From positions 1 through 64,000 of the IMG/VR virus record IMGVR_UViG_3300043427_003610: 64,000 nucleotides of DNA; one strand, given 5' to 3'. The position numbers and the translations under genes were made by a program. The notes below the pieces were generated by a model. That model did not search any database. It was not told the origin of the DNA and worked only from the letters and a program-made list of their open reading frames with translations. This document shows positions 5,870 to 53,924 of this stretch, piece by piece (positions within the stretch are counted from its first letter, which is position 1; the number at the start of each line of letters is the position of its first letter). The DNA is from a virus.

Positions 5870-6271
5870 ATGGCTAACGCGATCTATCCCAAGGCGAAGG
5901 AGCAGTTCCTTCAGGCTGGTATCAACATGTCGTCGGCGACCATCAAGGTGGCGCTCGTCGATACCGGCACCTACACCTACTCGGCTGCGCACGAGTTCCT
6001 GTCTTCGGTGAGCGGCATCGTCGGCACCGCGCAGACGCTCGGCAGCAAGGCGTTCACGAACGGCGTGTTCGATGCGGCCGACGTGACCTTCCCGGCGGTG
6101 ACGGGCAACACGGCCGAGGCGCTGCTGATCTACGTGGACACCGGTGTGGCTGGCACCAGCCGCTTGATCCTGTTCCAGGACACGGGCGTCACGGGCCTCC
6201 CGGTCACCCCGAACGGCGGTGACATCAACCTCGTGTTCGACAACGGCGCCAACAAGATCTTCGCTCTGTAA
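5870..6271 (+). CDS. Virion structural protein, unknown location
   Basis: A 133-residue protein after a strong GAGGAGG ribosome binding site. The sequence (YPKAKEQFLQAGINMSSATI, KVALVDTGTYTY, then SRLILFQDTG and NLVFDN) matches a family I recall in the appendage regions of many tailed phages, where it is a beta-rich virion component. It is the last gene before a clear stem-loop terminator at 6294-6342, which closes the small operon begun at 5053. No enzymatic motif or membrane segment is seen. Confidence 0.62.
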   Translation: MANAIYPKAKEQFLQAGINMSSATIKVALVDTGTYTYSAAHEFLSSVSGIVGTAQTLGSKAFTNGVFDAADVTFPAVTGNTAEALLIYVDTGVAGTSRLILFQDTGVTGLPVTPNGGDINLVFDNGANKIFAL

Positions 6272-6293
6272 TCGACATCGAGTAGGCGGAGCA

Positions 6294-6342
6294 CGGCGCC
6301 TTTCTGGACATTGCGGTTCAGGAAGGCGCCGTTGCTGCTTTA
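6294..6342 (+). terminator. Rho-independent-like terminator
   Basis: CGGCGCCTT (6294-6302) pairs with AAGGCGCCG (6323-6331), with extra pairing possible from TCTGGA and the complementary bases inside the loop, followed by TTGCTGCTTT. It closes the 5053-6271 operon. The U-tract is imperfect. Confidence 0.6.
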
Positions 6343-6388
6343 AGCACCTAAGACTGAAAGGTAGGGATTACACACCGAGGGCCGACGT

Positions 6389-7633
6389 ATGGCAAGCAGC
6401 ACAGAGGGGGCAGCCGCGCTAAAGTTTCCGTGGATGACCGTCACTAGTCCGACGTTCACGAACTTTACGCTTGATGTCTCCGGGGAGCGGTTCGGGTTTG
6501 TGTTTCGTGTTCCGAAGACCGGAACCCTAAAGTACCTGCGATTCCGCATTGCAAGTATCGTGTCATCGGCGGCGATCCGCGCTGGTGTGTATGCGGTTGA
6601 CGTTGCCACGGGATTTCCGACCACGCAGATCCCGGGGTCGTCTAACGGTACGGTGACGCCTACGGCTCCGGGGCAATGGGATATCACGCTGAGCGCTGGA
6701 GCCTCAGTAACCGTTGGTGACGTCGTGGCGGTCGTTGTTGAGTTTGACAGCACGATTGGTAACCTTGGCGTCGGCCGCTACGCGACGAATCTGCCGTTCC
6801 CGTACGCGGTCTCGTTTAACGGCACATCGTGGAGCAAAGCCACCGGCCAGCCCGCCATGGTTATAGGCTACGACGACGACACGTATCCGATGTTTGATGG
6901 AGTCCAGAATCCGTCGTTTGCGTCCGTTACCTACAACCCAGCCAGCACGCCGTACGACGAGTACGGCCTCGCCTGGACTCCGGCTGCACCTGTGCGCCTC
7001 AAGGCAGTGATGGCGTACCTCGCGCTCGTAAGTGCGAACGGAAACTATGACGTGGTGCTCTATCAGGGCACGACCGCGTTGGCCACCAAATCCGTTGATG
7101 GGCATGTGTTGTCGCTGATTACAGGGACCCAGCACCTGGTATCGTTCGACAACCCGGTCAACCTGACGGCAGGTCAGCAGTATCGTCTGGTGATCAAGCC
7201 CACGGTATCAAGCCAAGGTGTGCAGCTGTGGTATAGCGGCATTGCAAGTGCCGCTGAACTGAATGCGTGGAATGGACCCGACTACTATTTGACGCGCCGA
7301 GTTGATGGTGGCGCGTGGAGTGATGATTCTGGAGCGGTACCGTGGATCACCCCGATCTTCGATCAGATTGACGACGGCACTGGTCCGGACATCACGGGCA
7401 CGTACACGATCAGCGGTGTGGTGACGCAAGCCGGGAACCCCGTGAGCGGGGCAACGGTGCGACTGATTCGTCAGAGCGACAACGGCATTGCTTCGACCAC
7501 CACGAACGCGCAGGGCCAGTATTCGTTCAGCGTGGCAAGCGGGCATTTGTACCATGCGATCGCGGAGTGGACCGACGGCGGGCAGAAGTACAATGCCAAG
7601 AGCCTGTGGGACCTCACGCCGGTCGCACCGTAA
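6389..7633 (+). CDS. Appendage protein with C-terminal carboxypeptidase-regulatory-like domain
   Basis: A 414-residue beta-rich protein. The body carries two lectin-like or jelly-roll halves: about 15-140 (RFGFVFRVPKTGTLKYLRFR; PGQWDITLSAGASVTVGDVV) and about 170-320. The last ~75 residues (YTISGVVTQAGNPVSGATVR, then TTTNAQGQYSFSVASG) are a clear carboxypeptidase-regulatory-like (Ig-type) domain, common at the end of phage fibres and useful for weak binding to cell-surface sugars. Its codons are less G+C-rich than those of the replication genes. Probable receptor-contact or decoration protein. No promoter was recognised in the 47 bases between the upstream terminator and its ATG. Confidence 0.62.
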   Translation: MASSTEGAAALKFPWMTVTSPTFTNFTLDVSGERFGFVFRVPKTGTLKYLRFRIASIVSSAAIRAGVYAVDVATGFPTTQIPGSSNGTVTPTAPGQWDITLSAGASVTVGDVVAVVVEFDSTIGNLGVGRYATNLPFPYAVSFNGTSWSKATGQPAMVIGYDDDTYPMFDGVQNPSFASVTYNPASTPYDEYGLAWTPAAPVRLKAVMAYLALVSANGNYDVVLYQGTTALATKSVDGHVLSLITGTQHLVSFDNPVNLTAGQQYRLVIKPTVSSQGVQLWYSGIASAAELNAWNGPDYYLTRRVDGGAWSDDSGAVPWITPIFDQIDDGTGPDITGTYTISGVVTQAGNPVSGATVRLIRQSDNGIASTTTNAQGQYSFSVASGHLYHAIAEWTDGGQKYNAKSLWDLTPVAP

Positions 7634-7645
7634 CGGAGACCAGGT

Positions 7646-7951
7646 ATGCCGACCAGGCAGATTGGAGCCGAGATGGTGGGGTGGGAAGGTCACGATAACA
7701 CGTGGTCGATTTGGTGCGACGACTTTGATTGGGACAACGTGGTAGCCGGGCGCGCGTACGGAAAGCCGCTTACGGATATGTTCGCCACAGAGTTGCCTTC
7801 GACATTGCAGCTCGGCCGAGACAAGCGCTTGGTGGTGGACATTTCGGGCATGCCGGTGGGCGAAGACTTCCGGCTCTGGCTTGAGTTCGACATGAATGAC
7901 AACACGATGGTACGCGTGCCGGACGCGTACGACCTGCTCACGATTCGATGA
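7646..7951 (+). CDS. Unknown small protein, possible fibre accessory
   Basis: A 101-residue acidic protein beginning 12 bases after the previous stop. It has Trp/Asp-rich motifs (NTWSIWCDDFDWDNV) and a strand-rich second half (LVVDISGMPVGEDFRLWLEF). No domain is recognised. It overlaps the next start (ATGA at 7948). Its place between two appendage genes suggests a chaperone or a minor component of the same structure, but this is context only. Confidence 0.55.
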   Translation: MPTRQIGAEMVGWEGHDNTWSIWCDDFDWDNVVAGRAYGKPLTDMFATELPSTLQLGRDKRLVVDISGMPVGEDFRLWLEFDMNDNTMVRVPDAYDLLTIR

Positions 7952-8166
7952 TCTCGGACATTGATCAGCTCAACGTGCGGATTAACGCCTTGCAGCAGCA
8001 GTTCCTGACGCTGCACGAGGAAGTCCGGCACATGCAGAAGCAACTGAGTACGCTCGGGTCGCCCTGGTGGCGGCGGGTCTTGTTTCGTCTCGACGGCTGG
8101 CCGCCGTGGTGGATTGTGGCCGAACGACCGAAGTGGCGTCCCTGGCGGCGCTGGTGGAGGAGTTAG
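7948..8166 (+). CDS. Coiled-coil peptide with Trp/Arg-rich tail
   Basis: A 72-residue protein with two very different halves. Residues 1-37 form an amphipathic helix/coiled coil (INALQQQFLTLHEEVRHMQK). The last 35 residues hold nine Trp and eight Arg, as in PWWRR, WPPWW and PWRRWWRS. Short Trp/Arg-rich cationic segments of this kind partition into membranes and are typical of antimicrobial peptides such as indolicidin. It could be a virion component with a membrane-active tip or a lysis factor; nothing proves either. It is real by context: ATGA overlap upstream and three bases before the next gene. Confidence 0.6.
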   Translation: MISDIDQLNVRINALQQQFLTLHEEVRHMQKQLSTLGSPWWRRVLFRLDGWPPWWIVAERPKWRPWRRWWRS

Positions 8167-8169
8167 GCA

Positions 8170-9744
8170 ATGAGCGCATTGTACTTACACGACGAATTGT
8201 CTGACATCAGCCTTGGGACGAACAACACCAACAAGGCTGGGGCGGCCGTTGCGTGGCGTGCGCGTGTGGCCAAGCCGACCCCGGAGACTACGGCGAATGT
8301 GACCGCTACGGTCGCGTCGGTAACAGGACCCACGAACGGTCTGGAGACGGGCAACCCGGTCAACGAGTGGATCAGTGCTCCGTTGGCGGCCGCGGTGACG
8401 ATCAGCGGTACGATCAGGTTCAATATGTGCGCGCGCGAATCAAACGCCATGGCTAACGCTGGCGTGGGTGTCGTGGTGCAGCGACTCAACAACGTAGGAA
8501 CCGTGGTCTCGACAATTGTCGACTCGGTTCAAGGAACGGAGCTAGGTACCACTAATGCCCGTCGCACCTGGACGGCGACGCCAACCAGCACCGCGATGGC
8601 GGTGGGCGATCGATTCCGTATTCGCGTGTATTTCGACGACGCTGGTGGTACCATGGTTACGGGGTACACCCTAACACTGACGTACGACGGGACCAACGCA
8701 GCAATCGGCGATTCCAACGTGGACTTTGCCGAAACGCTCTCGTTCATGTCGGGGTCATCAGGCGGCCTTGGGGCGTTTACACCGGTGACCACAGGCATTC
8801 CCACTGGGCGAATTATTAATACGGTCGCTTATGCCAATAATCTGTTTGTTGCAACGGCGACGAATTTTACTCAGCAGACTTCAGTATACACTGCGTCAGA
8901 CGTCGCTGGTCCGTGGTCTCTTGTTGGCACACTTCCAACAGTTAACTCGGTAGCACGCCTTAAGTATGTAAACAATATTTGGATCGCATTGGCTGGGGGG
9001 TTATATACCGCAACCAACCTAAGCGGCCCATGGACAGACAGAACTCCGGCAGACGCAAACAACAGTGAAGATTTTGTGTTCGAGAATAATCAGTATGTGC
9101 TGGTAGGAGCGAGTTCTGGTGTAGGAGCGGTATGGTTCACTTCAGACATACTGCAACCGTCCTGGACGCGGACCACGATTGCGGGTACGAGCATACTGGC
9201 GGGCATCGCCTATGGCGACGGACTATGGGCTACCTGCGATTCCTCAGGTGCTTCCGGCAAGGTGTACACCGCAGCGTCTCCGTCTGGCCCATGGACTCAA
9301 CGTACGAGCCCGACAGCCAACTACACGTCAATGTACTATAGCAACGGCTATTGGGCTGCCGGTACTGGATCGTTGGGTGTGGTATATACTACCAATCCTA
9401 CAGGTACATGGACTCTTACAGGCTCCACTGAATTTGACGGCCTTTCTACTGACGTGATTGTCTATAGTGCAAGTACCGGTTTTTGGTATACAACCGCTGG
9501 TTCACGCTTAGCTTGCACCAGCAATTTTACCAGTTGGACGTTAATTGACAATGTGCTTTCAGGGAGTAGCCTGGAAGGCATCGCCTTGTATGATACGGGC
9601 ATTTTTGTAGGCGGGCAAAGCGGAAAGTCTGCTTACGCTCCGCTGTCATCGCCGTTGTTTCTTACAGACGTGATCAGTTCAATTACTGACCAAGGCGCAA
9701 GTGTTACGGAACTGACTGCGTGGACTAGCCGAGGGAACGGTTAA
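8170..9744 (+). CDS. Fibre/receptor-binding protein with propeller-like repeats
   Basis: A 524-residue protein. Residues 1-~190 form a beta-rich domain that is clearly related to the N-terminus of the next gene product (shared pattern: AVGDRFRIRVYFDD here, AAGQRLRFRFSLDD there), probably the virion-attachment part. Residues ~200-500 contain repeats ending in SGPW or AGPW (VAGPWSLVGTLP, LSGPWTDRTP, PSGPWTQRTSP), as in sialidase-like beta-propellers. DNA for the propeller (about 8790-9720) is markedly A+T-richer than its surroundings, suggesting acquisition of a new tip domain. The Asp-box itself is not clear, so enzyme activity is not claimed. The stop overlaps the next ATG (TAATG). Confidence 0.65.
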   Translation: MSALYLHDELSDISLGTNNTNKAGAAVAWRARVAKPTPETTANVTATVASVTGPTNGLETGNPVNEWISAPLAAAVTISGTIRFNMCARESNAMANAGVGVVVQRLNNVGTVVSTIVDSVQGTELGTTNARRTWTATPTSTAMAVGDRFRIRVYFDDAGGTMVTGYTLTLTYDGTNAAIGDSNVDFAETLSFMSGSSGGLGAFTPVTTGIPTGRIINTVAYANNLFVATATNFTQQTSVYTASDVAGPWSLVGTLPTVNSVARLKYVNNIWIALAGGLYTATNLSGPWTDRTPADANNSEDFVFENNQYVLVGASSGVGAVWFTSDILQPSWTRTTIAGTSILAGIAYGDGLWATCDSSGASGKVYTAASPSGPWTQRTSPTANYTSMYYSNGYWAAGTGSLGVVYTTNPTGTWTLTGSTEFDGLSTDVIVYSASTGFWYTTAGSRLACTSNFTSWTLIDNVLSGSSLEGIALYDTGIFVGGQSGKSAYAPLSSPLFLTDVISSITDQGASVTELTAWTSRGNG

Positions 9745-12700
9745 TGGCAGCGTCAACCGCAGTACGTACTACCCTGGCGGGCTTTGTCACGCAACTGCAG
9801 TGGACTGCCACGGCGAACGGCAACGCTGTCGAGTGGTATACGCCGCGGCTGTCAGCCGCCACGCTCTCGGGCCTGGTGTCCGCAAATGTGCGGGTCTCGC
9901 TAAGCAATGCTCTGGCCAACGCGACCGTGCGGTTGCAGATCGCCGTAGTCGATAACGACGGTACCAATCAAGTTATCTATGGCGCAGGCAACGCTAATGT
10001 CGAGCCCGGTACAACGGAGACCGTGTGTACGGTCGTAGTCGCTGGCCCGGACACTGCTATTGCGGCGGGACAGCGCCTTCGCTTCAGGTTCTCCCTTGAT
10101 GACTTCGAAGCGGCGATGGGTGCCGGGTACACGGCGACGCTGTACTACAACAGCGCCACGGCTGATGTGTCTGGTGATACGTACATCACCCTGCCGGTGG
10201 TGCTGGCGGAGTACAATCAAACATTAACGCTTACTGGCGTCGAGTCCACAAATGCGTTTGGTGCGCCGACAGTGTCGGCGGCTGTCCAGTCACAGACGAT
10301 CGAAGCGACCGCCGTCGACGATTCGACCGACGCGTTTGGTGCGCACGCGCTTCAGCTCAATCTGACGGCCACTGCTGTCGACGACAGCACAGAAGCGTTC
10401 GGGACGCCGACGGTCGACGCTGGTGCGGTTTCGCTTACGGCCTCTGCGGTTGACGACAGCACGGACGCGTTTGGAACGGCTACCGTTGAGGTCGGTGCGG
10501 TTACGCTTACCGCGTCGGCCGTTGACGATAGCACTGACGCCTTCGGCACCCCGACGGTGGCCGCTGGTGCGGTTTCGCTTACGGCCTCTGCGGTTGACGA
10601 CAGCACGGACGCGTTTGGAACGGCTACCGTTGAGGTCGGTGCGGTTACGCTTACCGCGTCGGCCGTTGGCGATAGCACGGACGCGTTTGGAACGGCTACC
10701 GTTGAGACTGGTGCGGTTACGCTCACCGCGTCGGCGGTGGACGACAGCACGGACGAGTTCGGCGCGCCGACGATCGCAGCCGGTGCGGTTACGCTTACGG
10801 CCTCAGCATTTGACGATAGCACGGACGCTTTCGGATCTGCGGTAGTTACGCCGCAGGCAGTAACGCTGACCCAGGCCGGTGTTGACGACTCGACGGATTT
10901 GTTTGGTAGTCCGACGGCGAGTGCTGGTGCGGTTACGCTGCAAAGCGAAGGGTACGACGACTCCACCGACTTCTTCGGCCTTCCGACTGTAAGCGTTGGT
11001 GCGGTAACGCTGACGCAGACGTCAGTTGTCAATGTCACGCTGTTCGGGCACCCAGAGAGCGACGCGCCGTTCCAAGCGCACGACCTCACGGCTGAAGCGG
11101 TATTCAACACACAGCAGTTTGGTACGGCACAGGTAATTCCTGGGGCGGTGACGCTTACCGCGACCGGGGTTAGCGAGTTCACCTACACGGCACCGGTAGG
11201 CAACGACGGCAACCTGGCCCTCGAGCCGTACAACCCACCGTCCGGCAACTTTGCCAACTTCGACCTGGCCAGCCGGTTCGGGCTGCACACGGTCACGGCC
11301 GGGGCGGCTACCCTTACGGCGTCAGCGGTTGACGATGGCACGGACCTCTTCGGTTCAGCTTCGATCACCACGGGTGCGGTAACGCTAGTTGCTGCGGCGG
11401 TCGACGACAGCACGGGTGACTTTGGCTCGGCCACGGTTACCACTGGTGCGGTCCTGGTCCAGCAGTCGGCCTTTGACGACAGCACGGACGCCTTTGGCTC
11501 GCCCACCGTCGCACAGGGTGCTGTCACCCTTACGGCAAGTGGCTACGACGATAGCACGGACGCGTTCGGCACTCCAAGCCTCGGGCTGAGCCTCGCAGCG
11601 AGCGGCGTTGACGACTCGACGGATACGTTCGGGTCGGCGCAGCTCCGGCTGAATCTGTCGGCATCTGGAGTTGATGACGCGACCGACGCTTTTGGTGCGG
11701 CAACGGTTACGGTTGGTGCGACGACGCTTGCGGCCAGTGGTGTTGACGATAGCACCGACAACTTCGGGTTCCCGGTCATTGCGACGGGGCCGGTGCTGGT
11801 CCAGCAGTCAGCATTTGATGACAGCACGGACGCCTTTGGTGCGCCGACAGTAAACCGTGGGGCGGTCACTGTCACGGCGACCGGATATGACGATTCCACG
11901 GATGCTTTCGGCTCTCCGAACCTTGGGCTGAGGCTTACTGCGAGCAGTGTTGACGATTCGAGCGACGCTTTCGGGTCGGCGCAACTCCAGCTGAATCTGT
12001 CGGCTGCTGGAGTCGACGACTCCACGGACGCGTTCGGTACGGCTACGGTCACTGCTGGCGGTACAACCCTGGTGGCCAGTGCGGTCAATGATAGCACGGA
12101 CGGCTTCGGCACGCCGGTCATTGCCACGGGTCCAGTGCTTGTTCAACAGTCGGCCTTTGACGACAGCACGGACGTCTTCGGTGCTCCGACGGTCAACCGC
12201 GGCGCAGTTACGCTCACGGCGGCCGCGTACAACGATTCCACGGATTCGTTCGGTGCCCCTCAGCTCAATCTGCGTCTTACAGCTACGGCTGTCGATGACA
12301 GTACGGATTCCTTTGGCGCTGCCGCGCTGCGGCTCAACCTGGTCGTCAGCGGGGTTGACGACACTACCGATGCGTTTGGCGGCGCAAGCCTACGGCTGAA
12401 TCTTACGGCTGCCGGAGTCAATGACAGCACGGATTCGTTTGGCTCAGCCAGCATTACCACTGGCGCAGTGCTGGTCCAGCAGTCGGCTTTTGACGACAGC
12501 ACGGACGCGTTTGGTACGCCCACGGTCACGTTGGGCGGTGTCGCCCTGGTCGCGTCTGGTGTTGATGATAGCACCGACGGTTTCGGTTCTGCGGTTGTCA
12601 GCACAGGCGCGGTTACGCTATCGGCGTCTGGCGTTGACGATAGTACGGACCAGTTCGGTACCCCGGTGTTGTCCACCGGGGCGCTCACGATCGTTGCCAC

Positions 12701-13490
12701 CGGGGTGGCCAATGCGCAGGCCTTCGGGACGGCGGCGTTTACAGCGGGCTCCGTCACGATCACCAGTTCCGCGGTGGTCAGTGGGGGTCAGTTCGGTGCT
12801 CCGGTCGTTGCTCCGCAGGCGGTCACGCTGCAGGCGGCCGCGGTAGACGATTCGACCGACGCCTTCGGTACGCCGGTTGTCTCGACCGGGCAGATCGTTC
12901 TTGCGCAGAGCAGTGTCGACGATTCGACGGATGGGTTTGGTGCTCCGACGGTCACGTCTGGTGCGGCGTCGCTCCTGGCGACGGGTGTCAGCGACGGCGA
13001 TACCTTCGGCTCGCCGCTGGTCGTTGCCGCCACCGTCCTGAGTGCCCAGTCGGTCGACGATTCTGTCGATGTCTTTGGTGCGCCCACCGTAGCGCCCGGT
13101 GCGCGGACGCTCTCGGCCAGTGGTGTCGCCGAAGCTGACCAGTTTGGGTCACCTGTCGTGGCGCCGGGGGCCGTCACGGTCACGGCAGCCGGTGCGGTAA
13201 ATCCGAGTGCCTTCGGCCTGGCGACCGTCAACCGCGGCGCGTTCACGCTGTCGGCCACCGGCGTCGATGATCGGACGGATGGGTTTGGGGCACCGACAAC
13301 CGCGGTCGGGCCGGTAACGCTTTCTGGCAGCGGGTTCGCTGACCCTGACCAGTTTGGGGCCCTGGTTGTCTCTCCTGGGCCGGTGTCAGTCGCTCCGACC
13401 TCGGTCGACGACGCAACCGATCAGTTTGGGGCGCACAGGATTCTTGACTACGGTAACGGACAAGTCTCCGCCTTCTTCGCGTTCTTTTAG
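9744..13490 (+). CDS. Giant 24-residue-repeat virion protein
   Basis: A 1248-residue protein. Residues 1-~160 resemble the N-terminal domain of the preceding fibre. Almost all the rest is a tandem repeat of about 24 residues with consensus V-D-D-S-T-D-A-F-G-x-P-x-V-x-x-G-A-V-T-L-T-A-S, of which I count about 45 copies by the FG mark; late copies are more diverged (for example VAEADQFGSP). The regular beta-type pattern suggests a long solenoid or fibrous stalk. The acidic DDSTD turn could bind Ca2+, but this is a guess. The end (GQVSAFFAFF) is hydrophobic and may be the tip. Repeats are also near-identical at DNA level early on. Probable tail/head fibre. Confidence 0.7.
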   Translation: MAASTAVRTTLAGFVTQLQWTATANGNAVEWYTPRLSAATLSGLVSANVRVSLSNALANATVRLQIAVVDNDGTNQVIYGAGNANVEPGTTETVCTVVVAGPDTAIAAGQRLRFRFSLDDFEAAMGAGYTATLYYNSATADVSGDTYITLPVVLAEYNQTLTLTGVESTNAFGAPTVSAAVQSQTIEATAVDDSTDAFGAHALQLNLTATAVDDSTEAFGTPTVDAGAVSLTASAVDDSTDAFGTATVEVGAVTLTASAVDDSTDAFGTPTVAAGAVSLTASAVDDSTDAFGTATVEVGAVTLTASAVGDSTDAFGTATVETGAVTLTASAVDDSTDEFGAPTIAAGAVTLTASAFDDSTDAFGSAVVTPQAVTLTQAGVDDSTDLFGSPTASAGAVTLQSEGYDDSTDFFGLPTVSVGAVTLTQTSVVNVTLFGHPESDAPFQAHDLTAEAVFNTQQFGTAQVIPGAVTLTATGVSEFTYTAPVGNDGNLALEPYNPPSGNFANFDLASRFGLHTVTAGAATLTASAVDDGTDLFGSASITTGAVTLVAAAVDDSTGDFGSATVTTGAVLVQQSAFDDSTDAFGSPTVAQGAVTLTASGYDDSTDAFGTPSLGLSLAASGVDDSTDTFGSAQLRLNLSASGVDDATDAFGAATVTVGATTLAASGVDDSTDNFGFPVIATGPVLVQQSAFDDSTDAFGAPTVNRGAVTVTATGYDDSTDAFGSPNLGLRLTASSVDDSSDAFGSAQLQLNLSAAGVDDSTDAFGTATVTAGGTTLVASAVNDSTDGFGTPVIATGPVLVQQSAFDDSTDVFGAPTVNRGAVTLTAAAYNDSTDSFGAPQLNLRLTATAVDDSTDSFGAAALRLNLVVSGVDDTTDAFGGASLRLNLTAAGVNDSTDSFGSASITTGAVLVQQSAFDDSTDAFGTPTVTLGGVALVASGVDDSTDGFGSAVVSTGAVTLSASGVDDSTDQFGTPVLSTGALTIVATGVANAQAFGTAAFTAGSVTITSSAVVSGGQFGAPVVAPQAVTLQAAAVDDSTDAFGTPVVSTGQIVLAQSSVDDSTDGFGAPTVTSGAASLLATGVSDGDTFGSPLVVAATVLSAQSVDDSVDVFGAPTVAPGARTLSASGVAEADQFGSPVVAPGAVTVTAAGAVNPSAFGLATVNRGAFTLSATGVDDRTDGFGAPTTAVGPVTLSGSGFADPDQFGALVVSPGPVSVAPTSVDDATDQFGAHRILDYGNGQVSAFFAFF
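10419..10668 (+). repeat. Near-identical 144-base higher-order repeat inside the repeat gene
   Basis: The segment starting GCTGGTGCGGTTTCG at 10419 recurs at 10563 with almost no change for about 100 bases. The distance is two 72-base units (48 codons). This shows recent duplication of repeat pairs on top of older divergence elsewhere in the array, and marks a region likely to vary in copy number. Confidence 0.7.
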
Positions 13491-13524
13491 CGTTAACGTG
13501 TCCGCGGCCTGAGCTGCTTGACGC

Positions 13525-13532
13525 GACGTATT
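13525..13532 (+). promoter_or_regulatory. Possible class B-like -10 (CGACGTATT)
   Basis: Differs from the class B motif CGACYTATT at one position. It lies in the 149-base gap after the repeat protein, about 107 bases before the next gene. A weak candidate. Confidence 0.25.
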
Positions 13533-13639
13533 GCTGAACTCTTCACCTCGCCATTATGCCACCCCGAACTAGCCGCCTTCTCCGCTGGGCGCTCGGCCTC
13601 GGTCGGTGGATATACACCTACCAAATAACGAGGACCATT

Positions 13640-13990
13640 ATGAACGCTATTGTGTCGCTTCTGCTTCGTGTTGCCCTGGCGGATATCGCCAAGGGTATTG
13701 TCGCTGGTCTCGCTCCGACGCTCCGCGCGGTGCAGGCGTACAACCTTCAGCCCGCCGACCTGGCCGCGTTGTTCGGACATGTCGCGATGCTGGCAAAGGG
13801 CGCAACGCCCCAGTACGCCCCGCTGGCCCACATGGCGGCCGAAGATGTCAAGGATATGGCCGAGGCGCTGTTCGGCCTGCTGAAGTCGCTGATGACGGAG
13901 TACGGGATTGCCCTGACGAATGAGCAGATCGGTACCTTGCTGGCGGCCGTCGTGGCGCGCGTCCAGGTCAAGTTCCCGGCAGCGGCCTAA
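13640..13990 (+). CDS. Small helical protein, unknown (possible virion or lysis accessory)
   Basis: A 116-residue protein. ATG 13640 is chosen because it follows a GAGG ribosome binding site; an in-frame ATG at 13556 has none. The N-terminal ~30 residues are hydrophobic with a few charges (IVSLLLRVALADIAKGIVAG), and the rest forms Ala/Leu-rich helices (LAALFGHVAMLAKG, DMAEALFGLLKSLM). Holin-like behaviour is possible but the hydrophobic segment is amphipathic, not clearly membrane spanning. Its stop overlaps the start of the next small membrane protein, so the two are probably made together. Confidence 0.55.
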   Translation: MNAIVSLLLRVALADIAKGIVAGLAPTLRAVQAYNLQPADLAALFGHVAMLAKGATPQYAPLAHMAAEDVKDMAEALFGLLKSLMTEYGIALTNEQIGTLLAAVVARVQVKFPAAA

Positions 13991-14145
13991 TGGAGTCCAT
14001 TTTTGACACGGAAACCGCCATCGTCCTCGGTCTGGCGATCGCCCTGGGCGTGTGGTGGTTGTGGAAAAACCCCAATCCGCCTCCCAAGCCACCGGAAGAG
14101 GTCGATCCTGACCAGCCGGTTAGCGACGAGCCCAAAGCGGAGTAA
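13990..14145 (+). CDS. 51-residue single-pass membrane protein
   Basis: Starts at an ATG overlapping the previous stop (TAATG). Residues ~9-26 (TAIVLGLAIALGVWWLW) form one membrane helix. The remainder is a Pro-rich, acidic tail (NPNPPPKPPEEVDP). The layout (short N-terminus, one helix, proline-rich tail) occurs in small phage lysis or superinfection proteins, but no specific family is recognised. Codon use matches its neighbours. It is followed by the class A promoter/terminator hairpin. Confidence 0.55.
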   Translation: MESIFDTETAIVLGLAIALGVWWLWKNPNPPPKPPEEVDPDQPVSDEPKAE

Positions 14146-14169
14146 GTAGCACCCAATATCGGCGGTTCT

Positions 14170-14196
14170 GTAAGGAGTGGCACACCTTGGTCAATT
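14170..14196 (+). promoter_or_regulatory. Class A promoter of the replication operon
   Basis: GTAAG 14170-14174, 15-base spacer, GTCAATT 14190-14196. The -10 lies exactly in the loop of the inverted repeat 14177-14207. The primase-helicase gene begins 31 bases downstream (GTG 14227). Confidence 0.72.
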
Positions 14197-14218
14197 AGGT
14201 GTGCCACCCTTTGTTTTG
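14177..14218 (+). terminator. Terminator hairpin with class A -10 in its loop
   Basis: GTGGCACACCT (14177-14187) and AGGTGTGCCAC (14197-14207) form a perfect 11-bp stem. The nine-base loop holds GTCAATT, and CCCTTTGTTTT follows. As RNA from upstream it reads as a terminator; as DNA it frames the promoter of the next operon. Confidence 0.65.
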
Positions 14219-14226
14219 GATCCCTT

Positions 14227-16260
14227 GTGATTTCCCTTCTTGAAGCAACCACCCGCCTGTTCCGGGGCCGGGGCGACGTCTACGCCCGGGCCTTTGCCAA
14301 GGACGGGCAGCCTGGCAAGGTCGGCTACACCCTGGTCAAGGAGCCCCTGACCCAGGAGCTGCTCCAGGACCACCTGTCTGGCAAGACCCTGCTGGGTCAG
14401 TACCAGCTGCTGTCCGACTCCACGGTCTATTGGTTCGCCCTCGACTTTGACGACGACGGCGACGCTGGACAGGTCTATGACCAGGCTTCGCGTCAGCTCG
14501 AGGCGTTCCAGGAGGCGGGTCTCCAGACCTACCTCGAGCAGTCCCGTTCTGGTACCGGCTGCCACGTCTGGGGGTTCTTCGACAGCCCCGTCCCTGCCGT
14601 AGATGTCCGGAAGGCCCTGAAGCCGCTTCTGGTCGACGCTAGCAGCTTCGACCGTCTCTACCCTGTTCAGACGACCGTCAGCGAAGCCCGGCCGTACGGC
14701 AACCTGATCGCGCTCCCGTTCTTCGGCGCGGAGGCCCGGGCAGGCTGGTCGAGCCCCTTCGGCCCCGGCGTTCCTGGCGGCGCCAGCGTGTTCCTCAACA
14801 CCGAGACCCTCGAGCCCATCGGCCCGGCCGTGTTCGTGGAGACCGTCCGGTACAACAACCGATACGTGATCGAGGAGCTGGCGAGCAATGCGCCGTCCGA
14901 GCCCGCGCCGTCGACGTCTTCCCGGAGCGAGGACTATGAGCCGGTCGCGTACGGTGAGACGTACGCCGGAGGGCGGCCGGATAAGCCGCTCAACGGCGTG
15001 GTCAAGCTGGTGTCCGACTACGGCTGCCAGTTCATGTCGCACGCGTTCGTTAACCGCAAGAACCTGTCGGAGCCGATGTGGTATGCGGCCATCCAGCAGC
15101 TGACCTGTTTCCAGAACGGTCGGGACGCGGCGCACATGATCAGCCGCGACTATCCCACGTACTCCGAGTCCGAAACCGACGCCAAGTTCACCCAGGCCCT
15201 GCGGCATCCGCCGGTCGGGTGCCGGTACATCCAGGAGCACTTCCCGCAGCTCGCCTGTAAGGGATGCACCGCCAAGGCACCGTACCACCTCGCTGATCGT
15301 CCGCTCGCGGGGCTCGCGAAGGAAACCACCGAGCCGATGCTCCACTCGGACTACAAGGGCTCGTTGGACCGCATGCGCCGTCGCAACCGCGGCGAGATGC
15401 CGGTTGGGGCCTTGTGGGGCACGGCCGGACTGGACCAGTACACCCGCCTTCGTCCCAAGGAGCTGACGGTCGTTGGTGCGCTCCCGTCGATCGGTAAGAC
15501 CGCCCTCCTTGTGGATGCCGCGGTGTCGCTGGCTGAGCGCGGTGTCCCGGCGCTGGTGTTCAGCGCGGAGACCGGCCGTGAAGGCCTGGAGGAAAGGCTC
15601 CTGGCGCGCGTGTCGGGCGTCGACTCCCGTGCGATTCGTGGCGAGCGCATCTGGGCAGGCAACCCGATGCCGCTCACGGCCGACGAAGAGCGCGCCGTCG
15701 ACCAGGCGGCCGAGCGCCTGCACCGCCTGCCGCTGTACGCGCACTACTCCGCGAGTCAGCCGGACCTGATCATCAACCTGATTGAAGACACCGTGCTTCG
15801 CGAGCGCCTCAATCTCGGCGCGCCGATGGTGATCTTCATGGACTACCTGCAGTTCGGCTCGCTGGATGTGGACGGTGGGCTTACCGAGTACGAGAAGCTC
15901 AGTCGCCTCTCCATGGAGTTCAAGTATCTGGCAAAGGTTCTGCGCCAGCCGGTCGTGATCTTCTCGCAGCTGAAGCGCGAGAAGGAGTCGGACGACGAGC
16001 CGCAGATCAACTGGTTCAAGGGCACGGGCCGCATTGAGGCTGACGCGGACGTTGCCATGATCTTGACCGGTGAGCGCACCCCGGGCGCCATCGCCAAGCG
16101 CAAGCTCTCGATCGTCAAGCAGCGCGAAGGCGAAGCCGGAATCTCGATCGATCTCCTCCTGCATCAGACCATCGCCAAGTTCGAACCCGCCCCGACGGTG
16201 ACCGAGCAGACGGTTACCAAGGACATCTTCTCCATGTCTCCCAATGCTTTCGTTGACTGA
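14227..16260 (+). CDS. AEP primase-DnaB-type helicase fusion
   Basis: A 677-residue replication enzyme. The N-terminus has archaeo-eukaryotic-type primase features of the kind found in TOTE systems: ALDFDDD (71-77, metal-binding Asp), SRSGTGCHVWGFF (106-118) and GNLIALPFFG (158-167). A Cys-rich link (C332, C344, C347) probably binds zinc. The C-terminal half is a RecA/DnaB helicase domain: Walker A GALPSIGKT (417-425) and Walker B VIFMDYLQFG (535-544). It should lay primers and unwind DNA at the fork, together with the polymerase encoded next (17-base overlap) and the DnaC-like loader. The GTG start lies right after the class A promoter; no strong ribosome binding site. Confidence 0.85.
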   Translation: MISLLEATTRLFRGRGDVYARAFAKDGQPGKVGYTLVKEPLTQELLQDHLSGKTLLGQYQLLSDSTVYWFALDFDDDGDAGQVYDQASRQLEAFQEAGLQTYLEQSRSGTGCHVWGFFDSPVPAVDVRKALKPLLVDASSFDRLYPVQTTVSEARPYGNLIALPFFGAEARAGWSSPFGPGVPGGASVFLNTETLEPIGPAVFVETVRYNNRYVIEELASNAPSEPAPSTSSRSEDYEPVAYGETYAGGRPDKPLNGVVKLVSDYGCQFMSHAFVNRKNLSEPMWYAAIQQLTCFQNGRDAAHMISRDYPTYSESETDAKFTQALRHPPVGCRYIQEHFPQLACKGCTAKAPYHLADRPLAGLAKETTEPMLHSDYKGSLDRMRRRNRGEMPVGALWGTAGLDQYTRLRPKELTVVGALPSIGKTALLVDAAVSLAERGVPALVFSAETGREGLEERLLARVSGVDSRAIRGERIWAGNPMPLTADEERAVDQAAERLHRLPLYAHYSASQPDLIINLIEDTVLRERLNLGAPMVIFMDYLQFGSLDVDGGLTEYEKLSRLSMEFKYLAKVLRQPVVIFSQLKREKESDDEPQINWFKGTGRIEADADVAMILTGERTPGAIAKRKLSIVKQREGEAGISIDLLLHQTIAKFEPAPTVTEQTVTKDIFSMSPNAFVD

Positions 16261-39765: not shown

Positions 39766-42700
39766 ATGGCAACCTCTGGTTTGAATTATCTCATTTCGGT
39801 GCAGCTGGACCAGCTTCAGGGTCTCCAGAAGCTGCACGACACCATTGTTGGCATTCAGCAACTCTCCCAGAAGGGCGCAGACTTTAATGTCCGCGTCAAT
39901 GCGTCGTCGCTTAGCGCGCTCACGAGGGAAATCTCGGACTCTGTCAGCAAGGGCTTTGGCCGCGCGAGCGCCAACGTAGCCAGCGGCGGCACCAGCGGAC
40001 CCAGCGTCAGCGTCGACACGACGAAGCTCGAATCCTCGATCTCCCGCCTGGCCGAGGTGGTCGGCCGCATGGGCACTGGCGGCGGCGGTGGCGTCGCTGC
40101 TCCGCCGTCTGCGTCGCGGATGTCTACTGCGTCCCGCAACGTGCTGCGCGAGCTGGACGAAGTCATCAAGATGTACGACGACGTGTTGGCGCAGCGCGCA
40201 GAGATGACTAAGGAGATGGCTGCCAAGCTTCGCCGCTATGTCACGAAGATCAGCGATCCCGGGGCTGGCGAGGCGGGCATTCGCCAGGACCTCCTAGACT
40301 TCCGGGAGCGGGTGGCGAGCCGCGCTGGGCGCTATGGCGGCAGCGGAACGCCTGGGGTGGCCGTGGATGCGTCGGTGCTCAAGCAGGTCTTTGAGTCTGG
40401 GTCGCAGCAGCTTGCCGGTGCCATGCGCAAGGGTATTGAGGATGCCACCGCTGGTCTGTCCGCGGCGATCACCGATGCTGTGCTGAAGGGCTTTGCTGGT
40501 GGTGGCGGCGGAGGCGGCTCTCCTTATGCGAGCAGCCTTGGCGCACCGGAGGGGGCAGTAGCGCGTGTGGCCAACCGCTACCTGGGCGGTCTCAGCACGC
40601 GCGACCAAGGACTGTTTGTTGACGCGGCGGCTGGCGGCGTTATGGCGTTGCCCCAGCAGTACAAGGAGCTGCTCACGCTGCGTGTGCGCAGCACTGGGGA
40701 AGTGCTGCGGATCGAAGAACAGATCGGAGCGTTAATTAGGCGCCGCGGGAAGGGCCAGGATCTAGTGGCCTCCGCAACTGATGACCAGTCGCGTGAGCGC
40801 TATCAGCGGGGCGTTGACAAGCTTCAGGCCGAGATCGCGCAGGCATACCTCGATAAGGATAGGGCAATTACGGCCGCACTCAATCGTCAGATTGACTCGG
40901 CGGTAGTCCAGTACCGGGCGGTGCTCGCTGGACAGCGCGGATCAAATCAGATCACGCCAGACGAGTACAAGCGAAAGATTGGGGCGTTGTCGTACGCCGA
41001 CGAGCGTCGCCAGTCTCTTGAAAGCAACAATCCAAATATCAACCGGGAGATGCTGCTCCTTCCGGATGCTCTTGCGCAGTACATTCGCGAAACACTGACG
41101 AAGTACGTTGAGCAAGTAAAGCGCTTCAAGACCAGCGGCCAGGCTATCGACCCCACGCTGCTGAGTGAGCTGCAGTCGAACGACTTTTTGGCCAACATTG
41201 CTGGCAGAGCCCCGACAGACAACGCGCAAGCCGCGGCAATTCTGAAGCGCCTGGTCCCCGTTGCTGCCGAGTTCGGCCGCACGAAGACGACCTACGAGTT
41301 TCTCAAGCAGCGAGCGACGATTGGGCTACCGACGTTCAATCCAAATCTCAATGTGGACACTGCGCCGTATCTCCCTGGCGAGGACGACCCTGGTCGACTG
41401 CCGATGGAAGATCGCGAGCGGTATCTAAAGACGTTCCTCGCGCGTGGGGGCATGTTTGCGTCACAGACGGCGGAGCGCAAGGCGTACGCGGAAAAGCAGC
41501 TGGAGTTGATGTACCAGCAGCAGCGTGCGGGGACGTTGGGTGAGGTTGGCGAGCGTCGGTTGCTCGATTACCAGCGCGAGTTGGAGTTTGGCGGGCGGTA
41601 CTACTACCCGCAGTCTGGCATGGCCCGTGGCATTATGTCCAACGGGATTCTCATGGCACCGCAGGAAAGTGCCCGCGTTCGTGGCGGCGGCGCCCGGTCC
41701 GAAGTGATCGGCGGGTCGCTTGGAGCCGCGCAGGCTGCCCTGTCGAGCGAGACCAAGGCCGCCCAAGAGCTGTACCAGGCCATGGGCTATGTCGAGGGTG
41801 CGCTCGGCCGGGTGACTCGCGCTATTGGCGACCTGGGTAAGGTCAAGTTCGACCCCATCGTGGCGGAGTTCCAGAAGCTGTCGGCGGTCCTGCAGCCGTA
41901 CGCGGCGAGCCTGGAGCGCGTCTCGAAGGCGTTGGACATGCAGTACGCGGCCAAGAAGATCACGGACGCCAAGGCCAAGCAGGAAGCCGTCGAGCAGGCC
42001 AAGACGGCCGGGCTCGCCGACCGCCTCGCCCTGGCGCAGTCCCTGGGCATTTCGGTCGCAGGCCCGGCATTCGCGGCACCGCGCCCGGGCAGCCAGTCGG
42101 CCTCTGGAATCCCGCTCATCTCCCAGGACCCCGAGACGCTCCGCGCCATGGTGCTCCGCGGGGCCAAGCAGATCGCCGGGCTTCAGGCTAAGTCCCAGGA
42201 CCTCTTGTCCCTGGAGGCGGCTCAGCTCGCCGCCGGGCTGCCCTCCGCGGCTACGGCACGACGCCTCGGCCAGACTGGGGCACAATACAATGCCACCCTG
42301 GGCACCTTTGCGACGAACGCCTCTGCCCTGGCCGGAATGGACCCCAGGTTCTTCGGCCGCTCCTCCCAGGACGTTATTGCGGCGTCCAGTGGTCTGCTCG
42401 GGGCGCAGGGTCGGAGCGTCCAGCTTGGAGACGAGATCCGGGTCCTGAAGACGTCCTTGGAGCAGTTCAAGGAAATTCAGGGTGAACTCAAGCGCCTTGA
42501 GGGCAATAAGAGCGATTCGGCGAATCTCCGTCGGCAGAGCCTGACCGACCTTCGCAACAAGCTCGTGGAGACTCGGGACGCCTCGCTGGACCGGCTGCTC
42601 AAGGGCGGCGTGCTGCAGCCCGGCGAGGCCAGCTCCAACACCGCCAAGGTCCTGGACACGCTGAAGACCAAGCAGCGTGAGCTGAACGCCGAGGTGGCCA

Positions 42701-45700
42701 AGTACTCCGACCTGCTCCTTAAGACCACCGAAAATTCGGTCAAGGCGGAGATGGCCGGTGGCGGGTTCCTGGACCGGGTCATTAACAAGTTCCAGAATTT
42801 GTCGGCGTATCTGTTCGCTGGTGGTGCACTCTTCACCATTGCGAACCAGCTTCGTCAGGCCTCGGCTGCGGCGATCGGTCTTGAGGCGGACATCGCGCGC
42901 ATTCAGGGCGTGTTGTCCAGCAAGTCTGCCGGACAGGCCGGAATTATCGGCTCTGGAATCATGGGCGCTGCCTCGGATTACGGTGTTGACCTGCGACAGG
43001 CGGTGCAGTCGGGTAAGATCTTCGCGCAGACCGGTGCCACGCCGAGCCAGACCGTAGAGTTGACTCGGGCCGCCCTCGCCGCGCAGGTCGGCGCCGGGCT
43101 GGAAGCTGGGCAGGCCACCGAGCTGCTCATTGCGGTTGAGAACATTACGAACCGGCAGGTCAAGGCGTTCGACATTCTGGACCGCATTTCTAAGATCGAA
43201 TCACAGTACGCCGTGTCCGCGCAGGACCTGTCCAACGCGATCCAGCGGGCCGGGTCTCTTGCTACGCAGCTTCAGCCGCAGGCTCTTGGCGCTGTGGACG
43301 CGCTCGACCTGATTATCGGCAGCGCGACTACTATCATCGAGCGCACGCGAGTTACCGGCGAACAAGCCGCGACTTCGCTTCGCTTTATCATCTCCCGCTT
43401 GGCCGCTCCAGAAGTATCTCGTTCCCTGCAGGATCGTTTTGGTATCAAATTGGCGGGCGACGATCCGAATACCCTCCGGCCGCTACAGGACATCTTGAAG
43501 GACGTGGCGGACCGCTACCGTCAGCTCCGCGAGTCTGGCCAGACCGTGCAGGCGCAGCAGCTCCTGACGACATTCGCCGGTGCTCGCCAGTCCAACGTGG
43601 CGGCCGCGCTCCTTGAAGGCTTCAACGACGCGCTCCGTATCGCACAGGAAAGCTCGCTCGCGTACGGCGATACCCAGGAGCGTGTCAAAATCCAGCTTGA
43701 CACCCTGCAGTCGAAATTTGAGCAGTTCAACACGGCCTTTACTGGATTCGCGGCGTCGCTGTTCAATGACACCGGCCTGAGTGCTATCCTGAAGCGCCTG
43801 CTCGATGCTGGAACGGCGGGGCTTCAGGCTTCGTCAAGCGGCCTTGGAGCTATCGGTGTCGGCGCCGGTCTGGGCCTTACCAGCATGATCGCGCGCACAG
43901 GCTCAACCGCTCTTCTGACGGCGGCCACGAATCCGGGAGCCGCTAGGCTTACAACGACTGTCGCCGGTGGTGCCGCAACTTTGCTTGGTGGCGCGGGCTC
44001 CGTGGCCGCTACTGGCGGGACCATTCTTGCGATTGTGGGTGCCCTGGAGCTGGCGGCGCGGTCCCTCGAGCGCATTGCCAAGCGTGAGGATGTGCGCACG
44101 GCGGAACGGTTTGACCGCGATATGTTCCGCGAGTCGCCTTTCTTCCAGGCATACCAAGAGCGCGCGCTGCAGTTTGGCTTGTCTACTGACGACATGTCGG
44201 CGACGTTCCGTGCCGCGCTGACAAAAGCGGATACGCAGGTACAGAAGGAGCTGGCGGCGGGTACGCTGCGACAGGACCAGTCGTATAACAGAACGACGCT
44301 CCTGCTAGTGGAGGAGCTGGATAAGACCATTCCTGGATTTGCGACGCTGGGCGATCAGGCGCAGCGCACGGCTAAGGCGCTTGAGCTGCTGCGTGAATCG
44401 GCGCGGTATTCTGCGGCTATTCCGCAGACGTACACGAACGAGTTCATTAAGGACCTCGACAACCTAACGTCGGAATTCGACAAGAGCGCTCCCGACCTGG
44501 GCAGGGCACTTCGCAACTCGCTGACCGCGTACGCCGCACCTGGCGGAATCCGTAACTCGCTTGGTCTCCAGCAATACACGTATCGCTTCAATATCAACGA
44601 GTTCAGCAAGCAGTTTATGTACGCGGGTAGAAACTGGCTGAACGTCGGTGGTCTGACTGCGGCGGGCACTGGTAACACCTTCCAGAACCTAATTCGGCAG
44701 GGCGGCGTCGGCAATGAGATTGCCACGCTTGACAATTATGCGCGTCAGTTCCTGCTTGTCAGCGGTACGCAGCGCGCCCGGCTTGAAACGATTGAATCGC
44801 AGCTTCGTGCCCAGAACAAGCCGGTCAATGCGACGACCGTGCAGGGAGTCCTAAACGCAGACCGGAGCCTTACGGACGCGCAACGCCAGAACTTTGGGAC
44901 CGCGTACTACCGTCTTGGCAATCAGCGACAGTTGTCTGATCAGATCATTCAGTCAATGAACACGGCGCTCGGAAACGAGCGCGGCCAGCGCCTGGTTCAG
45001 ATGTATCGCGATAGCGGCGCGATTGGCACTGAGCCTGGTGAGGTGTTTGCCACAGCGTTCCGGTCAGCAATTGAAGACGCTCGTAAGAAGCTAATCGAGT
45101 TTGCGCGTTCCTCTAACTACTCCACCGCCGAGATTGCAGAGCTAAACGCTCAGCTGAATCGTATGGCGGACAGTTCGGGCCGTGCCGCCAAGATGGCGAA
45201 TCTGGCGATCACGAGCATCTCGGTTCGCGATCGTATGTTCGAACCGATTGTTGCGTACGGCAGCCAGATGGCGGAAATCGGGACGCGCGAGCGCATTTCC
45301 CGCCGGTTCGGAACATCATTTGACGGGGTTGGGGCTCGGTCGCAGGCGGCGCAGCAGTTGCTCGTGGGTCTTGATCAGGTGCCAATGCGGCTCTTGCAAG
45401 ACCGTATTCGTGAGGCGGCCCGCCTGGTCGCCGGTGGTACTGGGACGATGACGGCGGAGATCCCGCTGACGGAAGACGGCGGCGGGGCGCGTGGATCGCG
45501 GGTGCGTCTGACGGAATCGGCGATGGTTAATGGATTTCTGCTCGGCCGTTCGGATGACATCGCGAAGGTCAACGCGCTGAAGGATCAGTATATCAGCGCC
45601 ACGCAGCAGGGCCTGGGCGGATTCATTGAGCAAGGCATGAACTCCGACAACGCTCAGCTGGCGGCGGTCGCCATGAACTTGAAGGACGCCCTTGACGCAC

Positions 45701-47260: not shown

Positions 47261-47989
47261 ATGCCGACGACGTTGACGACTGCCCCGCTGAACGGGTTCT
47301 ACATCGCGATGGCGGATGCCGCTGGCGCGAAGACGGCCCGGGAGACTCGGCTCAATCCAGCCCCGGTGCGCGTGGATTACCCGAACCGTACGCTCGGGGA
47401 GATGATCGAGACCGCGGACGGCCGGGTCGTGGTCCAGGTCTCGAACAAGGACCCCCGTCGGCGCTCCTGGATGTGGGCCAACATGGGCCCCGAAATGACC
47501 ATTGCGGAGCGCCAGCACCGGTGGCTCCAGCAGCTGGTCGCCCGCACCCGCCTCGCCCTCGGCCTCCCCCAGTACGTGTATGTCTACGACGGGGTGACTG
47601 GCCTCATGAACGTGAACCGGTCGCTGACGATTACGCCCTCTTCGCTGAGCGGCGACCGGCTGACCATCACGGTTCCGACCACCGTCTCCCAGGTCTATGC
47701 CCCGAACCTGGTCCACGGTGTCGTCGAAGTCCTCAACAACCCCAGCGGCGGCAGCAGCTTCCCGTACGAGCGCCGGTCCATCGTGTCGGCCACGAGCACG
47801 ACGCTGGTCCTGGATACCGCCTTGAGCGGCACTCTGGGCACCAGCCAGATCATCGTGACCTGGTCCGAGCCTGCCTGGTGGAAGGCCCGCATCCTGGACA
47901 CTACCCGCGAGCTGCGGACCGAAGGCGGCCCGCCGCGCTACACACAGAGCATGCTCACGTTCGTTCTTGAAGAGGAGATCCCGGCCTAA
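47261..47989 (+). CDS. Distal tail protein-like
   Basis: A 242-residue protein, first after the tape measure. It is beta-rich, with strand segments RVVVQVSNKDPRRRSWMW (the RRRSW turn recalls distal-tail proteins), RLTITVPTTVSQVYAPNLVH, a SYERRSIV-like stretch and TLVLDTALSG. Distal tail (Dit) proteins form a ring joining the tube to the baseplate and lie at this point in siphovirus genomes. No ribosome binding site stronger than GGGGG (about 47251) is seen. Its stop overlaps the next start (TAATG). Positional call plus weak pattern. Confidence 0.58.
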   Translation: MPTTLTTAPLNGFYIAMADAAGAKTARETRLNPAPVRVDYPNRTLGEMIETADGRVVVQVSNKDPRRRSWMWANMGPEMTIAERQHRWLQQLVARTRLALGLPQYVYVYDGVTGLMNVNRSLTITPSSLSGDRLTITVPTTVSQVYAPNLVHGVVEVLNNPSGGSSFPYERRSIVSATSTTLVLDTALSGTLGTSQIIVTWSEPAWWKARILDTTRELRTEGGPPRYTQSMLTFVLEEEIPA

Positions 47990-53900: not shown

Positions 53901-53922
53901 CAACGAACGGCGTGGGAGCTAA
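47989..53922 (+). CDS. Giant tail-hub protein with PA14-like domain
   Basis: A 1977-residue protein. Residues ~100-220 (VALCYQGTIVPAAQRAWLSA, SNDYTFALAGSGWARIDVVD, ending NEPWGGLVVKAI) resemble a PA14-type carbohydrate-binding domain. Residues ~260-420 match tail-hub/baseplate proteins (SLRVYDGGTLTHTLKRKRLI; TIFTGVVDDFDGGGGKGRMT; VRELTDKLGYVCRFD). The long remainder is beta-rich with many Trp/Tyr/Thr and recurrent linker motifs, as in receptor-binding extensions. It should form the tail-tip hub on which fibres dock. A minus-strand frame of similar length under it is a G+C artefact. Domain borders are approximate. Confidence 0.68.
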   Translation: MRPSPTPSTFFAADQDWLFRVRTWDTPQTTLENDTASAGMRLRVYQPIAETTNWTTYADALKAVADGSSPETAFTSATYATSALKNSSGTPVDGRWPLVQAYWGSGAPNWWGGARSRRVALCYQGTIVPAAQRAWLSASNDYTFALAGSGWARIDVVDGVTRTTIFRGDLSEPVFLSAGFSYSKTHTFTATSELHVYYVQTTNEPWGGLVVKAIAGSRPTGLSANGTAMSYTGTAATEAIAAAAPVASCGLFSYAAVSPVILPFIESVNVVQEPGAATRADIEIPLVNPNVNDGNGWTFYQSDPELDPGSLRVYDGGTLTHTLKRKRLIQLQVARNATSPSWSTIFTGVVDDFDGGGGKGRMTIRCVSFEGRMVEQFEQAPDRISYMARGFRVLDYERSAPADRKEPVYNVPAFDNWPLEWAIEEMGNRAGIDPSCFRKAYQAVKSDGTGASVTLPWGTAQRFAARSLSGEQVRLPRPVHYGNVGLSFTEKRPYDDDYVFKIEPTKDLWSRVRELTDKLGYVCRFDVEGAAILYPATSPSFVRELVVADATSGGVNVTAVTNPSAYGAKYLQVATNTAATLQATVSASRIDVSFPRITGARNWTATVTRVSDSTVVFTGTISQTSSAASLELFFDATVAQPGSNSTVVTLYSGDYTSYQVTLTAASAASLAYVDCLLCYAQDPDTAKLPTLSTSDAALSVALRSQQDAVRNKVTIVGRRKAAVTDSDKFDEAQGPTEQEFVVQNAVDINSISNPSALNYIGYLKQAVIYDESIADDGLARYLAQVFIYRQSVPRAGTNVTHTLLPMLEPGDPVAVNESMFDTMTSSMTQYVRKVSHQIAANKFTTTVETEAWPDYPAYQPRTDINLADFNNKPVTGMTINYVSISGQTITDPGADDVKRVEGNLVEQSNVTFTGSTLNVNTGLQWPPVPGTFQIKPNYVAGTTRTAVQTDRADVTGSWATGARLHTFTMSEDWFFSGLLVKLYKADGSLTLSSSATDGNVSRTGYFYYHVADRTVTVFRGSKAFTSTESQYVRGEAVLQYTRSTGDARNAWLTNNPYHRFLNINYTDAASPRVQLPWEQTTGVTRDDGITSFNVRYRSLFEDVGRTDPNGAAIGGVAQSPFYDPYTSELGYLVSFRCSVLAEGLYRVSIRNWEDDTIVAWLTNPAGDASEPEEHWEYLPVMANRQFTWDGVDQLGIWNATQSELYSTLVEGTFEDGERPRVGRGYYCWNREISGGDLGPLAYIWMQRDPSTGLPYIGQGTYGRWYVFVEAQTTTDAENEVSSRDSDLAILTHLPEPTKVELSVQDWSGSAWVTPTTGVSTSTIGAYINNTKPVRIRFRVAQRPGQLWTATNKGEVSVKLTREAHLRAVLADQTVVYRGKEFAGTSVEDRAIYNRRLVNDEHTRQYVDTGYRKAKTFKWNDGTDTGDAVTEWVFQPSDFKKDFMIQGYEESLEFGNYLQLEEVPEWNGTRELTAARARLHFALMSYLFYLSAYVTDRSGRSSWGINRSFVDKSKIYINTATLDWPTDPMYEHRRTVVCRQWTEETAWKTGQLSTFGYDANTLFNQLLQAFWWQHDVTSITIGTGMVFWGDYVLPTDPYSNFHVVSGSGLSEPFVLPNTYTIYNRQLGNVVSGAPTCLLGKRTTAQGGGTLTGSWNWESSPIWIPNITRDLHPFFLLPPMISPPKPAGTTPAWGLERDYRPINCYWTIGGPDVSVRGRGGYDQSGSVTNSYYVTSDAAAAETWTSPVGDFTYSTSRFWPGQSVDVKEKPFKDLSASDKAKFMNYVRQDEMVHYEDLRGVYSRGRYPTAPAVKVPAGSAYYLNPFRYLGIEVSNTLNDSPYPQYHVIVDRQALSTGIEWFRTAFRSEYVWESGSMFPSSLTGRERLEGVLWWRHRYSTVVPSTLYYDFGAWTGWKDDRLASLGAAAVVGGKRTGGDYTSTNITVGNPFTTGFMPVGVGPVLPETTELVCHMILLNERRGS

Positions 53923-53924
53923 CG

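Follow-up and report, generated by a model that had tools for sequence, protein, structure and literature searches.

What is a phage protein of 1248 residues, nearly all of it one short repeat, and what might it do for the virus? The gene lies in a 64-kb window, the stretch of DNA analyzed here, taken from an 84.5-kb IMG/VR virus record. The layout of the window is that of a long-tailed phage, with a weak portal match at 26113 (E 0.001), a tape-measure match at 39766-47124, and large tail proteins reaching to 63776; a primase-helicase (14227) and a DNA polymerase (16244) are also present. Two very large proteins of the tail region (1977 and 1388 residues, 47989-58091) have no PHROG match at E 0.01. 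The repeat gene was confirmed as an open reading frame at 9744-13490 on the plus strand, starting with ATG and free of internal stops, and about 85% of its product is tandem repeat. The protein contains no lysine and has a net charge of about -117. Its features are as follows.

9744..13490, plus strand: repeat protein gene, 1248 residues, phrog_13352 match with E 3.4e-51
9744..10235, plus strand: N-terminal domain, residues 1-164, predicted jelly-roll beta-sandwich (upstream-gene similarity, AF2, Foldseek)
10236..13430, plus strand: tandem repeat array, residues 165-1229, 45 FG-ended units, mostly of 24, 23 or 21 residues
10404..10835, plus strand: recently homogenized unit block, with a 107-nt exact repeat at 144-bp offset
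11049..11282, plus strand: pair of eroded units, an insertion in the second; 53-residue spacing
11449..12253, plus strand: five-unit higher-order repeat of 342 bp (24-24-21-21-24), from TRF and the unit list
12660..13430, plus strand: C-terminal units, several of them 23-mers of the GVxxxxxFG form known from relatives
13431..13490, plus strand: aromatic C-terminal end AHRILDYGNGQVSAFFAFF and stop, similar to the sister-phage end VRYGDLQASFFLLF

The 45 FG motifs define 44 spacings, of which 24 (25 units), 23 (8), and 21 residues (8) are the commonest; one eroded stretch spans 53 residues (461-513). The preliminary description had counted about 45 tandem 24-residue repeats. The number stands, but "tandem 24-residue" is a simplification, as only 25 of the 44 units are 24-mers. 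These have the consensus T[PA]TVxxGAVTLTAS[AG]VDDSTDAFG, in which Asp-18 and Thr-20 are invariant and Asp-21 is 96% conserved, and the 21-mers follow xxxLxLxLxAxGVDDSTDAFG. A DNA pattern for D-D-S/T-T-D-x-F-G matches 23 times in the window, always within the repeat gene, where shuffled sequences lead one to expect 0.00 matches. Some C-terminal units retain a form found in relatives, e.g. GVANAQAFG and GVAEADQFG. At the DNA level, blocks of two and of five units are visible: TRF reports repeats of 72/144/216 bp at 10365-10939 and, at 11449-12253, about 2.4 copies of a 342-bp repeat, corresponding to the five units listed above. The longest exact copy in the array is 107 nt, from 10418 at an offset of 144 bp, and the pair at 10419/10563, previously described as identical over 144 bases, agrees at 132 of the 144 positions. 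The 342-bp repeat is older than the one at 144-bp offset. Differences among 24-mer units fall mostly at third codon positions (2597, 1906, and 4228 at positions 1, 2, and 3), a pattern as in a maintained coding frame.

We compared the protein with known repeat families. Pfam gave no match above the cut-off, the PDB sequence search no solved relative, and the RTX/Ca2+ nonapeptide repeat profile (GGxGxDxUx) in Pfam did not match. The spacing, mostly 21-24 residues, is not the 15-16 residues of the triple beta-spiral, and no beta-spiral family was matched in Pfam. Among PHROGs profiles, phrog_13352 ("minor tail protein") matched over 11 stretches, and phrog_8501, also a "minor tail protein", matched as well; in a six-frame search of the whole record, the phrog_13352 match was confined to the repeat gene. 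A loose DNA pattern based on the usual unit, G-I-x-x-A-E-A-F-G-x-P, matched at least 120 viral stretches; an open reading frame with at least three FG spacings of 19-26 residues is found in 86 of the 120 viral stretches listed, compared with 4 of 114 bacterial stretches matched by the same pattern. Sixty of 62 array-bearing relatives, all found beforehand with the repeat pattern, match phrog_13352. Their unit consensus is TPTVxxGAVxVxPxGIASAEAFG (23 residues) or TPxLxLxIxPxGIASAEAFG (20 residues), and 624 of their units share with the window both the unit layout and a 3-residue length step at the identical position (24/21 versus 23/20).

The window protein thus resembles the PHROG 13352/8501 class in its FG-ended unit of 20-24 residues, its two forms 3 residues apart, and its phage structural context. 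It differs in that V-D-D-S-T-D-x-F-G replaces G-I-x-S-x-E-x-F-G in most units and in that its units are one residue longer. As most window units lack G-I-x-S-x-E-x-F-G, the relatives' commonest motif, which we treat as typical rather than defining, we filed the protein as a variant of the phrog_13352 class. Its number of regularly spaced FG motifs (43 spacings) is the highest among the proteins compared, followed by 28 in L081. Judged by its sequence, it is a greatly lengthened member or variant of a widespread, uncharacterized phage repeat class. The initial view that the repeat belongs to no named family holds insofar as Pfam is silent and no solved sequence relative was found, but the class is widespread in phages and already carries a PHROGs label. 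Searches of viral contigs with the whole protein, a DDSTD profile, or a Microcystis relative returned no relatives, and no DNA-level relative of the gene was found among phage records. A DDSTDxFGxP pattern gave a single match, rejected since it is not a repeat. No relevant paper emerged from literature searches on the motif or on minor tail proteins with repeats. In Pseudanabaena phage Pam2 (L003:7911-9530), SLFTNTNSFY repeats show a similar strand pattern and are possibly a distant form of the FG-repeat stalk.

The relatives indicate where such arrays are attached. Seven contigs, which fall into three groups by sequence, have a head-closure domain of the lambda gpFII type (PF05354, phrog_82) at the C-terminal end of the array. 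The domain is 31-47% identical between the groups, and contigs of one group are identical over it. Two groups begin with DUF2341/LamG, and in the third (L047) the sequence starts inside the array. In each of six records searched, which may be fragments, the fused gene is the only PF05354 match. In two further contigs, minor tail protein sequence (phrog_1885) comes after the array, a second type of anchor.

L046:4064-6760: gpFII-type fusion gene with LamG/DUF2341 N-terminal end
L032:6755-9418, minus strand: gpFII-type fusion gene with LamG/DUF2341 N-terminal end
L020:1699-4431, minus strand: gpFII-type fusion gene with LamG/DUF2341 N-terminal end
L047:1-1734: gpFII-type fusion gene, start of the gene not included
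L008:891-2912, minus strand: array, then phrog_1885 minor tail protein sequence
L118:3366-5792, minus strand: array, then phrog_1885 minor tail protein sequence

Of the 62 relatives, 7 carry a LamG lectin domain, and the LamG-array-gpFII fusion is likely a neck fibre within one chain. In L046, protease-like, decoration-like, and capsid-like genes and two small genes precede the fused gene, and sheath- and tube-like genes follow (names assigned by eye); in G006, G015, and G041, a PF10145 tape-measure match follows the fused gene at a distance of about 4 kb. Elsewhere the array is located between portal and capsid genes (G027), before the portal (G026), or, in an M. abscessus prophage, after the tape measure and before the lysis genes. 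The repeat protein of Microcystis phage Mwe-JY26 (XAI96042), encoded between the major capsid and tail-tube genes, has IQDGDTFG-type units with an acidic turn; it differs from the window protein in having about 10 FG motifs, other flanking domains, and no DDSTD. A functional parallel to the LamG-repeat-gpFII fusions is the neck passage structure of lactococcal 936 siphophages, in which, according to the excerpted text of PMC6669499, a neck protein bears carbohydrate-binding modules. That excerpt notes no FG-type repeat, and in the window protein a Pfam search detected no C-terminal gpFII-type domain (PF05354). Bacterial fibrillar adhesins, whose repeat stalk projects a binding domain in the part of PMC9210967 drawn on here, are parallel to the proposed stalk in function, but they are bacterial surface proteins with no family match.

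We next consider the fold. For eight units and a self-made alignment, AF2 predicted an all-beta structure (pLDDT 72, pTM 0.73). With the N-terminal domain included and a natural alignment containing relatives, the values were pLDDT 74 and pTM 0.59; here, the N-terminal domain reached a pLDDT of about 90 over residues 30-120, and the units, with three short strands each, mostly 60-90. AF2 modeled the chain as a monomer. The beta-solenoid first proposed for this protein is in line with such a solenoid-like, all-beta prediction of moderate confidence. Fold searches with the repeat model returned nothing better than E 0.001, and the repeats alone matched no PDB fold. Given this and the moderate AF2 confidence, "beta-solenoid" is a reading of the strand pattern rather than a demonstrated fold. 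As to whether the repeat is a known, solved family, the class is known to PHROGs and has neither a solved relative nor a fold match in these searches. The N-terminal domain is 36% identical to the N terminus of the upstream gene product (8170-9744, E 4e-13). Foldseek matched its model to CocE-type hydrolases, in a region which we take to be their C-terminal jelly-roll, and to a short tail fibre domain of cyanophage A-1(L) (E 4e-6 to 5e-4); as modeled, the domain looks like a jelly-roll/CBM-type module. A search of phage records with the domain gave no match, and viral contigs gave three, two of them with other kinds of repeat. In L132:267-1967 and L133:3887-5476, the domain is combined with short tandem repeats of very different kinds (SIRMHKMGISAAG and ISGGGxLAAxGxK types).

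Three viral records have a DNA polymerase (78, 66, and 66% identity) and a primase-helicase (79, 66, and 66%) in common with the window. Comparison with the sister phage L128 reveals a swapped cassette, window 6272-14226 versus L128:863-7980, between conserved borders.

5870..6271, plus strand: phrog_644 gene (no assigned function), conserved left border of the cassette, 54% identity to L128
6389..7633, plus strand: cassette gene with CarboxypepD_reg (prealbumin-like) domain, Pfam PF13620 E 3e-9
8170..9744, plus strand: adjacent gene, 524 residues, N-terminal domain of the repeat protein, then a propeller-like repeat region (propeller by eye)
14227..16260, plus strand: primase-helicase gene, conserved right border of the cassette, 66-79% identity to the sister phages

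None of the tested window genes between the phrog_644 gene and the helicase was found in L128 by tblastn at E 1e-3. Directly upstream of its helicase, L128 encodes a 129-residue protein (7510-7896) with about four units of the ordinary form, which matches phrog_13352 (E 5e-6) and, in a single comparison, the C-terminal region of the repeat protein (E 3e-6). The C-terminal ends, RYGDLQASFFLLF in L128 and DYGNGQVSAFFAFF in the window, are only suggestively alike: 266 of 20,000 shuffles score as well in a test with the L128 end truncated by one residue. Because of its position and the two matches, we call the L128 protein the orthologue of the repeat protein. The number of units differs about tenfold, about 4 versus 45, between phages with 78% identical DNA polymerases, and the expectation of variable length between isolates is borne out in that unit number varies widely between related phages. 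The window N-terminal domain was not found in L128, and the repeat profile had no match in the L129 or L130 record.

We consider it reasonably probable that the protein is a virion fibre, a solenoid-like stalk of variable length within a swappable adhesin cassette. In this model, about 44 beta-rich coils, most of them 21-24 residues long, would stack into a beta-solenoid-like stalk flanked by a jelly-roll, CBM-like N-terminal domain and the short aromatic C-terminal tail. The stalk would be an adjustable spacer between the sugar-binding-like domain and the virus particle, its length altered by unequal in-frame recombination of unit blocks, and the gene would belong to a cassette of exchangeable structural and adhesin genes extending from the phrog_644 gene to the primase-helicase. 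We infer the solenoid fold, from the models, as well as sugar binding and, from the PHROGs label and the relatives' fusions, a virion location in the window phage. The C-terminal end probably, if not firmly, serves as the virion anchor; we favor it because of the gpFII fusions, the likeness of the C-terminal end to that of L128, and the absence of the N-terminal domain from L128. The "N-terminal attachment domain" of the preliminary description may thus be reversed. Against a C-terminal anchor, the N-terminal domain is common to the neighboring gene, as would also be expected of an N-terminal virion anchor.

The stalk reading has against it the moderate confidence of the monomer AF2 repeat model and the lack of a solved fold matching the repeats. 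Both would also suit chains forming trimeric extended fibres (a triple beta-spiral or similar) in place of a monomeric solenoid, and phage fibres are often trimers. We find this doubtful: a beta-spiral unit has a period of 15-16 residues, whereas the unit here has 20-24 residues and three short predicted strands, no beta-spiral family was matched, and the relatives' array is fused to a gpFII-type domain, which does not require a trimer, gpFII being a hexamer in lambda. It is unlikely, in our estimate, that the repeats are themselves the binding surface, a ladder of acidic DDSTD turns that binds Ca2+ and/or a receptor with array length setting avidity. The near-complete conservation of Asp-18, Thr-20, and Asp-21 in the 24-mers, the spread and retention of DDSTD through duplication, and the strongly negative, lysine-free composition speak for this, but DxSxD is a weak motif, no Ca2+-repeat family was matched in Pfam, and the relatives' units carry GIASAE, with one acidic residue, at the same place. 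Metal is hence not a class feature. As the acidic turn is lineage-specific and absent from relatives of the same layout, Ca2+ is not needed for the fold in general, and calcium binding as a class trait is unsupported.

The virion fibre reading also has to accommodate a gene that is not adjacent to the head and tail genes of the window (portal at 26113, tape measure at 39766-47124). This location, near replication genes and a possible holin gene (weak phrog_608 match), could be that of an intracellular or released decoy protein outside the virion; we regard this as very unlikely, since relatives have head-closure and minor-tail domains within the same chain and those in cultured phages are located in structural regions. 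Slighter still is the chance that misassembly of a repetitive locus produced the array length. The assembly is metagenomic and contains one 107-nt exact repeat, but most units can be placed by their differences, the reading frame is unbroken, and many contigs independently contain long arrays.

The FG repeat is very common in phages, yet it has no Pfam entry, structure, or description in the literature searched. The head-closure fusions indicate where it probably sits and what it probably does, and the pair of sister phages represents a natural length series. We tentatively suggest that the FG repeat could represent a new beta-solenoid family and a stalk module general to phages, interchangeable at the neck (fused to head closure, about six per virion) and the tail, whose length would be tuned by rapid gain and loss of units, as between the sister phages, to set the reach of the binding domain. 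Together, the fusions and the sister pair make the tuning of fibre length in phages a testable question.
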